Origin: Cellulomonas sp. APG4
GTDB taxonomy: Bacteria; Actinomycetota; Actinomycetes; Actinomycetales; Cellulomonadaceae
Length of the DNA: 64,000 nt
NCBI RefSeq assembly: GCF_009996735.1
Contig: NZ_JAACYI010000014.1
Span: 1-64,000 of the forward strand
Reading direction: 5' to 3'
The first letter of the stretch is position 1; every line of letters starts with the position of its first letter. Below are positions 35,061-37,892 of this stretch, piece by piece. The position numbers were made by a program, and so were the translations under genes. The notes beneath the pieces were generated by a model. The model was not told the origin of the DNA. It worked only from the letters and a program-made list of their open reading frames with translations, and searched no databases.

Positions 35061-36155
35061 TCAGCCCAGCTGGCGCGCCCCCAGCCACGGCTCGAGCACG
35101 TCCTCGGCGCCGAGCCAGGGACCGAGTCCCTCGGCCATCTCGGCGTCGGTGAGCAGCAGGTGCTCGAACGGCGTCCGCAGGTCGGGCGCGTGGCCCCCGG
35201 CGCCGGTCACGACCAGGTGCGTCTCGGGACGACGTCGGCCCCACGTCCCGAGGGCGCCGATCGACAGCTGGCCCCCCGCCGCGTCCCAGACGCAGACGGT
35301 GTCGGGACGGTTGGCCACCCAGAACACGCCGCGCCCGCGGAACGGCCCTGCCGCGAGCTGCTCGACGTCCTCGACGAAGCGTTCGGGGTGGAACGGGCGG
35401 GACGAGCGCAGCTCGACGGTCCAGGCTCCCGGCGCCGACCGGTGGCGAGGCGCGGAGACCTGCAGCGGGTCGAGCCTCGCCTCACCCGCGCGCGCGTCGT
35501 GGTGGCCGGCCAGCAGCCGTCGCACGTCGAGCTCGTGCAGGCCGTCCACCCGGCGGCCGTCGAGCGCGCGCACGTGCTCGAGGAGCGCCGAGCCCGTCGC
35601 GTCGGTCCCGTGCGTCACGACGACGTCGGCGTGGGCGAGCTGGGCGGCGACCGCCTCACCCACCGCGCGCCGGTCGTCCTGCGTCAGGGCGAGACCGCGC
35701 TCGTCGATCAGGTCGTCGCCCAGGAGGTCGTCGTGCAGCGCGTCCAGGTCGACGCCGGCCGTCACGGCGGACAGGCGCAGCCGGGTGAGCAGCCCACCGC
35801 GGCGCACCTCGGCGTCGAGCGCGCGGGCGACGGGCAACGACTCGGCCGAGACCGGCAGCGCGAGGGCGACGGCGTCCCACCGTCCGTCGGCGGCGAGCTC
35901 ACGCAGCCGGGGGACGGCGTCCTCGCGCACGGCGCAGCTCAGGCACGCGTGCTCGAGCGGCACGCGCGCGTCCTCGACCACGCCGTCGCGGTCCAGCACG
36001 AGGCGCCGGATCTCGCCGCCGCCCACGCCGTCGTCGTGGATGTCGTGCTGCAGCACGACGCCGGACGGGACGTCCATGAGGAAGCCGAGCACGAGCGAGT
36101 CGCGCAGCACGGGGTCGACGGAGGTGAGCACCGTGAGCGGCAGCCGGTGGGACAT
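35061..36155 (-). CDS. CobW/COG0523-family protein without P-loop, Mrf-like
   Basis: The 364-residue protein has the CobW strand order and a C-terminal CobW_C domain ([35 protein letters not shown]). However, the N-terminal GxxGxGKTT is replaced by [15 protein letters not shown], and the metal motif CxCC by ACLSCAV. GTP hydrolysis is therefore unlikely. AGGGAGAA precedes the ATG. It is divergent from the zinc-free ribosomal protein operon and shares its Zur-like promoter. In mycobacteria a COG0523 protein in this regulon (Rv0106, Mrf) recruits the hibernation factor to zinc-free ribosomes, so a similar role is the best inference. A zinc chaperone is the alternative. Confidence 0.78.
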
Positions 36156-36222: not shown

Positions 36223-36252
36223 TTGACGAGAACGATTATCAATCTCTAGTTT
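36223..36252 (+). promoter_or_regulatory. Promoter of the zinc-free ribosomal operon with Zur-like box
   Basis: A -35 TTGACG (36223-36228) and -10 TAGTTT (36247-36252) are 18 bp apart. Between them lies GAGAACGATTATCAATCTC (36228-36246), whose centre GAACGATTATCA resembles the Zur consensus TGAAAATGATTATCA and whose ends GAGA/TCTC are inverted. Zinc-bound Zur sitting here would block the operon and perhaps the divergent CobW-like gene. AT content is clearly above the surroundings. Confidence 0.75.
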
Positions 36253-36278
36253 CGAGGCCCTACCCACAGGAGGTCCGC

Positions 36279-36515
36279 ATGTCCGCCGTCTGCCAGGTCC
36301 TGGGCACCACACCCGGGTTCGGCCACTCGATCTCGCACTCCCACGTGCGCACCAAGCGCCGCTTCGACCCGAACATCCAGCGCAAGCGCTACTGGGTGCC
36401 CTCGCTCGGGCGGCACGTGCGCCTCCGGGTGAGCGCCCGGGGCATCCGCACGATCGACCGGCGCGGGATCGACGCCGTGGTGGCCGAGATCCTCGCCCGC
36501 GGGGAGAGGCTCTGA
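36279..36515 (+). CDS. rpmB: Ribosomal protein L28, zinc-independent paralog
   Basis: This 78-residue L28 has [22 protein letters not shown], the family core. Zinc-binding L28 has two CxxC pairs; here only Cys5 remains (SAVCQVLG) and the C-terminal pair is gone, so it is the C-minus type used when zinc is scarce. A strong AGGAGG lies 4 nt before the ATG. It is the first gene after the Zur-like promoter and overlaps L33 by TGATG. Confidence 0.93.
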
Positions 36516-36685
36516 TGGCCGCCCGGCGACAGGACCAGCGCCCGATCATCACCCTGCGCTCCGCAGCCGGGACCGGCGCGTCATACGTCACGCGGAAGAA
36601 CCGACGCACCACGCCCGAGCGGCTCGTGCTGCGCAAGTACGACCCGGTGCTGCGGCGCCACGTCGAGTTCAAGGAGAGCCGCTGA
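36515..36685 (+). CDS. rpmG: Ribosomal protein L33, zinc-independent paralog
   Basis: This 56-residue L33 of the 50S subunit shows [39 protein letters not shown], close to E. coli-type L33, and contains no cysteine. Start and stop both lie in TGATG overlaps with L28 and S14, so translation is coupled. It replaces a CxxC form during zinc limitation. Confidence 0.92.
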
Positions 36686-36990
36686 TGGCCAAGGCGAGCA
36701 AGATCGCGCGCGACGCCCACCGCCGCGCCGTCGTCGCCCGGCACGCCGAGCGCCGTCGCGAGCTCAAGGCCGCGGCCGTGGACGTCCACGCGACCCCCGA
36801 GGAGCGCGCCCGTGCCATGGCGGAGCTGCACGCCCTGCCGCGCGACGCGAGCCCCACCCGCGTGCGCAACCGGGACGTCGTCGACGGTCGACCGCGCGGT
36901 CACCTGCGCGCGTTCGGGCTCTCGCGGGTGCGCATGCGGCAGATGGCGCTGCGCGGCGAGCTGCCCGGGATCACGAAGTCGAGCTGGTAG
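36685..36990 (+). CDS. rpsN: Ribosomal protein S14, zinc-independent (long) paralog
   Basis: The 101-residue S14 is the long cysteine-free type, in contrast to the about 61-residue zinc form. [67 protein letters not shown] matches the family. It belongs to the 30S head. Coupled to L33 by TGATG; L31 begins 12 bp after the stop. Confidence 0.95.
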
Positions 36991-37002
36991 GAGGCCAGAG
37001 CC

Positions 37003-37266
37003 ATGCGCAAGGACATCCATCCGCCGTACCACCCGGTCGTGTTCCGCGACCTCACCACGGACACGGCGTTCCTCACGCGGTCCACCGTGACGTCCGAGCG
37101 GACGACGACCTGGACGGACGGCCGCACGTACCCCGTGGTCGACGTCGACGTGTCGAGCGCGAGCCACCCGTTCTGGACGGGCCGCACGCGCGTGCTCGAC
37201 ACCGAGGGCCGCGTCGAGCAGTTCCGTCGCCGCTACGGCCAGCGGCCCGACGGCGGTGCGCGATGA
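37003..37266 (+). CDS. rpmE2: Ribosomal protein L31 type B
   Basis: The 87-residue protein begins [16 protein letters not shown] and ends with [26 protein letters not shown], diagnostic of type B L31, which has no zinc-binding CxxC pairs. It replaces type A L31 in the central protuberance under zinc limitation. Its last codon overlaps the start of L36 (ATGA). Confidence 0.95.
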
Positions 37267-37385
37267 AGGTGCGTGCGTCGCTCGCCTCGCTCGCGAAGAA
37301 GGACGGCGCGATCGTCGTGCGTCGTCGCGGGCGGGTCTACGTGCTCAACAAGCGCAACCCGCGCTGGAAGGGGCGGCAGGGCTGA
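37263..37385 (+). CDS. rpmJ: Ribosomal protein L36 type B (zinc-independent)
   Basis: This 40-residue protein reads [15 protein letters not shown] then [23 protein letters not shown], matching the YkgO-like type B L36. The Cys3-His zinc site of ordinary L36 is absent. It overlaps L31 (ATGA) and L32 (TGATG), which confirms that it is a real coupled gene despite its size. Confidence 0.93.
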
Positions 37386-37573
37386 TGGCCGTCCCCAAGC
37401 GACGCATGTCCCGCTCCCGCACGCGCTCGCGGCGTGCGCAGTGGAAGGCCGAGCCCGTGCGGCTCGTCGAGGTGGTCGTCGACGGCCGCTCCGTGCACGT
37501 CCCGCGCCGCCTCGCACGAGCGGTGCAGCGCGGGCTGATCGATCCGTGGAACCCCGAACGAGGAGAGACATGA
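37385..37573 (+). CDS. rpmF: Ribosomal protein L32, zinc-independent paralog
   Basis: The first 23 residues ([23 protein letters not shown]) are typical L32. After that, the usual CxxC...CxxC zinc ribbon is replaced by [31 protein letters not shown] with no cysteine. The 62-residue length equals normal L32. It is coupled to L36 and to the HU gene (ATGA). Confidence 0.9.
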
Positions 37574-37851
37574 CCCTGAACCGCCCCGACGTCGTCGAGC
37601 GCGTGGCCGAGCGCGCCCAGCTGTCCCGTGCACAGGCAGACGCCGCCCTGACCGCCGTGCAGGACGTGCTCGCCGACGCGCTGCGCGACGGCGTCGCCGT
37701 GCGCATCCCCGGCCTGCTGGTCGCCGAGCCCACCGAGCGTGCGGCGCGCACCGGGCGACACCCGCGCACGGGGGAGCCGCTCGAGATCCCCGCCGGTCGT
37801 GGGGTGCGCCTCGCGCCCGGCTCGGTGCTCAAGGCCGCCGTCCGCGCGTGA
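37570..37851 (+). CDS. HU/IHF-like DNA-binding protein ending the zinc operon
   Basis: The 93-residue protein has the HU fold: [37 protein letters not shown] for the dimerising helices, and [37 protein letters not shown] for the arm and last helix. The GFGTFEV turn of HU is altered to [10 protein letters not shown] binds and bends DNA or structured RNA. It starts within the L32 stop, so it is made along with the zinc-free ribosomal proteins. The reason is not known; it may replace a housekeeping HU or protect DNA/RNA under zinc stress. Confidence 0.85.
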
Positions 37852-37858
37852 GCTGCCG

Positions 37859-37892
37859 TCGGGGCCCCGCAGGAAGGTCTGCGGGGCCCCGA
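37859..37892 (+). terminator. Terminator of the zinc-free ribosomal operon
   Basis: A perfect 14-bp stem (37859-37872 with 37879-37892; TCGGGGCCCCGCAG and its inverse) with loop GAAGGT starts 7 bp after the HU stop. It closes the seven-gene unit. Confidence 0.88.

Follow-up and report, generated by a model that had tools for sequence, protein, structure and literature searches.

A predicted Zur-repressed zinc-starvation operon in Cellulomonas sp. APG4 contains the only recognisable HU gene of the genome

Spare ribosomal proteins under the control of Zur are a familiar theme, and HU is a DNA-packaging nucleoid protein that is normally constant. What, then, could an HU gene be doing at the end of an operon for spare ribosomal proteins? 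This question is raised by a locus in a 64,000-nt stretch of DNA from Cellulomonas sp. APG4 (contig NZ_JAACYI010000014.1, positions 1-64,000; referred to as the window, to which all coordinates apply), where the sequence and its open reading frames give seven genes on the + strand in the order L28-L33-S14-L31-L36-L32-HU (Table 1). Judging from the sequence, we consider it likely that these genes form a Zur-repressed zinc-starvation unit, which has captured the genome's only recognisable HU and would thereby make HU a conditional protein.

Five of the six junctions between the genes overlap as TGATG or ATGA, the exception being a 12-nt gap between S14 and L31. The ribosomal families were confirmed with Pfam and NCBIfam models, and the six ribosomal proteins have a single cysteine among them, which is located in L28; the zinc-binding cysteine pairs are absent. 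Coordinates, junctions and families thus bear out the initial annotation of this DNA, which had described six tightly overlapping genes for cysteine-poor ribosomal proteins with one cysteine in all. The 14-bp stem that it had placed at the end of the unit is also present and perfect, though without a T run. This hairpin is located 3' of HU and not of L32, its stem being separated from the HU stop codon by 7 nt, and this position suggests that HU closes the unit. The annotation had spoken of a seven-gene unit of ribosomal proteins: the six ribosomal genes that it listed are there, but the seventh, which it left unnamed, codes for an HU-family protein and is not ribosomal. A scan for T-run terminators and for sigma-70 promoters listed nothing between positions 35900 and 38000; the sigma-70 scan, which is stricter than the scoring of promoter-like pairs described below, missed even the promoter of the operon that holds the Zur-like box, and it therefore says little at this locus.

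The seventh gene product matches the HU profile PF00216 with 79.1 bits (cut-off 22.4) over profile positions 1-89 of 90, and its best match among solved structures is the HU protein 1hue (E 1e-15). The alignment to 1hue is free of gaps and includes the basic beta-arm with the intercalating proline, in which a His takes the place of the usual Asn. Scores with the NCBIfam HU and IHF equivalog models were all below the cut-offs. A profile search of the genome returned this single PF00216 match at E-values up to 1, which rules out that the protein is one of several HU copies. Within the window's Actinotalea/Cellulomonas genus, a PF00216 match above the cut-off was found in 9 of 19 genomes, and in eight of these nine the HU gene follows ribosomal genes. 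The ninth genome (G017) carries a different, long-tailed HU and has no cysteine-free S14. No HU was found in the other ten of the 19 genomes, the same ten being missed by a protein query and by the Pfam model. Assembly gaps were rejected as an explanation, as the two methods agree and a one-contig and a three-contig genome are among the ten. One extra PF00216 match in G002 (E 0.8) is below the cut-off. A cysteine-free S14 is encoded in 9 of the 19 genomes, eight of which also carry the operon HU, the exception being G011. Outside the genus, HU is present in 17 of 18 genomes of the family's other genera and in 18 of 22 genomes of the order's other families.

The second part of the evidence comes from the region upstream of L28. 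Here, the initial annotation had seen a Zur-like box between a -35 and a -10 element, and the box indeed lies in the promoter spacer, with two bases in common with the -35. In most relatives, the region upstream of L28 likewise has a TTGAC -35 and, next to it on the 3' side, a palindrome that resembles GAATGATTnTCA. When promoter-like pairs upstream of L28 were scored for the window and 15 relatives (G013 was left out, its L28 being on another contig), the best pair opened with TTGACG or TTGACC in all 16 genomes, with 8-9 of 12 matches, a level that was reached by 18 of 340 random windows. With a matrix of 21 sites from relatives, chosen by eye, the window box scores 32.1 with its own site left out. 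One of the 21 sites, that of G004, is identical to the window box, and the score without it is 31.4. Overlapping matches of the box score 9.1-18.3, no place elsewhere in the 64 kb exceeds 10.5, and the best scores in simulated 64-kb sequences were 19.4 (n = 20, one strand) and 14.3 (n = 20 others, both strands). The box is far above background and, as far as its letters can tell, would qualify as a Zur operator at a promoter.

A search of the whole genome with the box pattern, allowing for up to one mismatch, gave seven rows, two in this operon, four in a box pair at C33:204975-205011 and one, a single-mismatch site, at C11:414629. Exact matches occur only at the operon and at C33:204975, and the reversed pattern, used as a control, gave no forward and one reverse match. 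The C33 boxes are located at the start of znuA, which is followed by genes for an ABC ATPase, an ABC-3 permease and a Fur-family protein with an HHHHLICRGC motif. The second of these boxes overlaps the first codons of the longest znuA reading frame, and the true start of znuA is probably a later ATG. Two Fur-family genes are present in the genome, and we regard the product of the one that ends the znuA-ATPase-permease run as the candidate for Zur. This label is based on its neighbours and its motif: the protein scores 45.1 bits with the NCBIfam Zur model (cut-off 167) and more with the Fur and PerR models, but it reaches none of the cut-offs. No box was seen by eye upstream of L28 in four relatives (G030, G041, G042 and G056), and the sole S14 found in these genomes is the cysteine-free one, a pattern that would fit a box tied to spare copies.

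The operon proteins are spare copies in the window's genome. For all six of them, L33, S14, L28, L31, L32 and L36, a second copy with paired cysteines is encoded elsewhere in the genome, that of L36 in the main ribosomal cluster. It had been proposed that the operon codes for zinc-independent paralogs under a Zur-like operator, a view that hinged on such copies; their presence for six of six proteins supports it in silico and rules out that the operon proteins are the genome's only copies. The initial annotation had also regarded the lack of S18 in a unit with both L36 and L32 as a peculiarity, and this part has to be given up. Among the best 80 of at least 339 related loci, a set that comprises close relatives only, L36 and L32 are both present in 21, with an S18 match in none of these 21 within the fetched stretch, and an S18 match is found in 24 of the 80. 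The genome has one S18 copy, which is already cysteine-free. This explains why the operon contains no spare S18, and it rules out that S18 has been lost from the zinc response. The combination of a missing S18 with L36 and L32 is common and no peculiarity of this operon.

How far does the link between HU and the box extend? Within the fetched stretches, HU was found in 17 of the 80 related loci, of which four have a box upstream of L28 (scores of 28.0-31.8) and 13 do not (-5.4 to 5.2); in 32 further loci a box is present but HU is missing. Two of the four loci with box and HU are from Demequina, and neither genome has another HU. In a sample of 41 Demequina genomes, HU is present in nine, in all of them directly after L28-L33-S14-L31-L36, with L32 included in eight of the nine. 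The remaining 32 are without HU by the Pfam model, although some of these absences may be gaps, as genome completeness is not given. The best box upstream of L28, scored with a matrix that contained no Demequina site, reaches 29.5-31.8 in eight of these genomes and 24.0 in one (G080). The spacing between the preceding ribosomal gene and HU is -4 (window), 25, 75, 14, 15 (Cellulomonas bogoriensis), 14, 57 (from L31) and 64 nt in the window's genus and 10, 10, 10, 233, 10, 54, -1, 194 (from L36) and -4 nt in Demequina, and hence no more than 75 nt in 15 of 17 genomes. In Actinotalea ferrariae CF5-4 (G013) the unit is split. The genes for the MRF-like protein, L28, L33 and S14 are on one contig (L122), and none of L31, L36, L32 and HU was found in the next 5 kb of it. 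The L31-L36-L32-HU half is on a second contig (L112) and has a Zur-like box of its own (1105-1125, score 29.0) in the same promoter setting, which suggests that HU and Zur control persist together through rearrangement. Gene order also varies in an Actinotalea metagenome-assembled genome (G004, L106), where L31 is located after HU and not before L36, and no L36 or L32 was detected in the unit of G002.

Several observations weigh against a captured, zinc-dependent HU. The 194- and 233-nt gaps before HU occur in two of the 17 genomes, the shorter one in Demequina sediminicola, and the 233-nt gap of G080 contains a 16-bp hairpin (-33.5 kcal/mol), so that HU may be uncoupled from the unit there. 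G011 has the ribosomal operon without HU, and the same is true for five Cellulomonas loci (L113, L114, L116, L118 and L119), whose genomes have one HU elsewhere in each case. The median ratio of non-synonymous to synonymous differences (pN/pS) in eight genomes is 0.52 for HU, compared with 0.20-0.43 for the six ribosomal genes and 0.54 for the MRF-like gene, and the higher value for HU could reflect a relaxed constraint. In one genome (G085), a promoter-like pair upstream of HU has 8 of 12 matches, again the level of 18 in 340 random windows. Finally, in data reported for Mycobacterium smegmatis the hup transcript drops under zinc limitation (log2 -3.75) with the protein unchanged, against the rise predicted for the operon HU, the gene in question being MSMEG_2389, which lies outside the zinc operon (PMC8866557).

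Among the alternative explanations, the one that fares best, though we think it unlikely, is that HU is a passenger, that is, a relic of the gene order of a neighbourhood of zur and L28-L33-S14 in an ancestor of these Micrococcales, which is expressed constantly from a promoter inside L36 or L32 and has no role in the zinc response. Such a neighbourhood of zur, L28-L33-S14 and HU is found in Subtercola, Frigoribacterium, Microcella, Cryobacterium (four genera that we take to belong to the family Microbacteriaceae) and others. These are the 13 of the 17 HU-bearing loci that have no Zur box upstream of L28, unlike the window, and in which the first recognised gene past S14 is HU, at a distance of no more than about 330 nt. 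In the six that were measured, about 75-319 nt separate S14 from the aligned HU start, and HU probably has its own promoter there. In addition, HU adjoins a zur-like gene in G019, G030, G033, C. fimi HM71, C. algicola and Cellulomonas sp. ACRRI, which would also fit a passenger. However, in the 17 genomes promoter-like pairs ahead of HU score 5-8 at best, the same as in random windows, as opposed to 8-9 upstream of L28 in the 16 genomes scored, and the link between HU and the operon survives rearrangement, as seen from the varied order in G004 and G002 and from the separate box of the A. ferrariae HU fragment.

Other observations concern the surroundings of HU in other Micrococcales, where it is often found near zinc genes and in some cases shortly after L28-L33-S14 without a box. 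The Fur-family genes that adjoin HU in the six genomes named above (L081, L082, L088, L222, L223 and L224) code for proteins with 60-68% identity to the zur candidate of the window's genome, and this adjacency holds whether or not HU also adjoins ribosomal genes. In G027 (L076 7917-8440), HU is divergent from a gene for a ZnuA-family protein with a Zur-like box (25.6) between them, and HU may thus be Zur-controlled by another route. In G028 (L077 3500-9700), L36 is separated from HU by genes for a 499-aa protein that matches no Pfam family and for a ZnuA-family protein, and past HU and L32 there is a gene for a YibE/F-family membrane protein; related proteins to the latter, grouped by clustering with Pfam run for G028 and G025 only, are encoded behind HU in G025, G027 and G034.

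The operon HUs themselves likely have a single origin. In a tree of HU proteins, the 17 operon HUs are split from 27 others, a selection of those fetched, on one branch with a support of 100/99. Three long-tailed HUs (G017, G061 and Isoptericola_a) were left out of this tree; in an earlier tree, which contained these three as well as two HUs from Demequina, ten operon HUs were set apart in the same way. The single origin is stated as likely with the long branches of some operon HUs and the arbitrary root in mind. A plausible path would be that an old neighbourhood of zur, L28-L33-S14 and HU later came under one Zur-controlled promoter in the window's genus and in Demequina.

We propose the following model for the operon, in which HU is a captured member of the unit. 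In the presence of zinc, Zur would occupy the promoter spacer and keep the unit off. When zinc is gone, Zur would be released and the unit opened, giving zinc-free L28, L33, S14, L31, L36 and L32 together with HU on one transcript. The zinc-free copies would replace the zinc-binding forms and thereby spare or release ribosomal zinc. As no HU gene other than the seventh one was found in the genome, HU would be made mainly alongside the alternative ribosomes in zinc starvation. The MRF-like protein would be made from the other side of the common control region. Our best guess for the job of HU in zinc-starved, slow-growing cells is the compaction and protection of DNA, a suggestion to which we give about an even chance and which we place ahead of a role at the ribosome. 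In the latter case, the target of HU would be the alternative ribosome or its RNA and not DNA; HU might, for instance, act as an RNA chaperone while cysteine-free ribosomes are assembled. HU proteins are known to bind RNA, and the fact that HU closes a ribosomal operon and overlaps L32 would fit such a role. On the other hand, the DNA-binding arm motif is conserved, no feature of the sequence singles out RNA, and G011 keeps the ribosomal operon without HU. We regard a ribosomal or RNA role as doubtful, slightly more so than the passenger explanation.

All 17 operon HU reading frames are intact, code for proteins of 92-97 aa and keep the arm motif GR(N/H)Px(T/S)G including its proline. For the closest pair (G005 and G018), a dN of 0.013 and a dS of 0.198 give a ratio of non-synonymous to synonymous substitution rates (dN/dS) of about 0.07, which indicates that HU remains under selection. 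With these values and a net charge that is not clearly lower than in other HUs (+1 to +4 versus +1 to +9), it seems improbable that both genera have ceased to need HU and that the operon copy is a last, decaying remnant, even if the Pfam model finds no HU in 10 of 19 and 32 of 41 genomes, long branches are seen for some operon HUs and lysines number 1-5 in operon HUs (ten scored) versus 5-10 in 27 others (the three long-tailed HUs, with 1-2, were set aside).

Compared with known systems, the ribosomal part of the operon is of a kind already described; what sets it apart is HU in a Zur-like unit. In M. smegmatis, the account of MSMEG_6065-6068 beside the MRF gene MSMEG_6069 reports that L28 and MRF are both preceded by Zur boxes (PMC7174638). 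The window operon shares with the mycobacterial one the order L28-L33-S14, the adjoining MRF-type gene and the zinc-containing paralogs (PMC7174638). In contrast, the M. smegmatis unit has S18, its L31 is beside MRF, and MSMEG_6065-6070 as given there include no L36, L32 or HU (PMC7174638), whereas the window operon lacks S18 and continues after S14 with L31, L36, L32 and HU. The Zur regulon of Streptomyces coelicolor, as tabulated in a review (rpmE2, rpmF2, rpmB2, rpmG2, rpsN2 and rpsR2; PMC6103462, Table 3), covers the same class of proteins, L32 among them, and differs from the window operon in that it includes S18; the word "histone" is absent from the main text of this review. Where HU appears in the text of PMC4219657, it is mentioned only for comparison. 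No report of an HU gene in a Zur operon, nor of any nucleoid protein in such a unit, was found in the open-licence literature, which was covered mostly by titles and the beginnings of abstracts; this is weak evidence of absence.

Table 1. Features of the predicted zinc-starvation unit and its divergent neighbour (gene coordinates include the stop codon)
Feature	Coordinates	Strand	Evidence
CobW/MRF-like protein, no Walker A, shares upstream region with the operon	35061..36155	-	PF07683, PF02492
Promoter-like site, TTGACG (-35) 36223-36228, 16-nt spacer, TCTAGT (-10) 36245-36250	36223..36250	+	sequence reading
Zur-like box CGAGAACGATTATCAAT, within the promoter spacer	36227..36243	+	footprint in relatives, leave-one-out score, genome pattern search
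rpmB2, L28, zinc-independent form, one cysteine	36279..36515	+	PF00830 E 4.4e-27
rpmG2, L33, no cysteine	36515..36685	+	PF00471 E 2.7e-16
rpsN2, S14, 101 aa, no cysteine	36685..36990	+	PF00253 E 1.4e-23
rpmE2, L31 type B, no cysteine	37003..37266	+	NF002462 132.5 bits, cut-off 86
rpmJ2, L36 type B, no cysteine	37263..37385	+	PF00444 E 1.6e-16; NF002021 69 bits, just under cut-off 70
rpmF2, L32, no cysteine	37385..37573	+	PF01783 E 2.1e-9
HU-family nucleoid DNA-binding protein, 93 aa; ATGA overlap with L32	37570..37851	+	PF00216 E 3.1e-22
Terminator-like hairpin, 14-bp perfect stem, 6-nt loop, no T run	37859-37872/37879-37892	+	fold z -7.5

The MRF-like gene is divergent from the ribosomal operon and its product has no Walker A motif, as at mycobacterial loci, for example that of Mycobacterium deserti, which has the same divergent layout without a Walker A. 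The best NCBIfam match of the protein is the MRF model NF047431 (E 2.8e-37), whose score of 128.6 bits is below the equivalog cut-off of 375, so that the protein is not filed as MRF. A search for counterparts gave 13 hits from 12 loci, 11 of which lack Walker A; the two that have it are extra CobW genes in loci that also contain a Walker A-less copy. The Bifidobacterium locus gave no hit in this search.

Taken together, it may well be, although the case is finely balanced, that HU has turned from a housekeeping into a zinc-starvation protein in the window's Actinotalea/Cellulomonas genus and in Demequina; zinc-fed cells would then be without HU, and Zur would alter the architecture of the chromosome together with the composition of the ribosome. 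If expression follows the layout of the operon, this would be a natural case of a bacterium in which HU is ordinarily absent and is supplied on a metal signal. If so, the purpose of HU can be probed by comparing cells with and without zinc, and against the HU-less sister species. A further suggestion is that the zinc-starvation programme of actinobacteria extends to the chromosome besides the ribosome, with DNA packaging and ribosome remodelling responding to zinc together.

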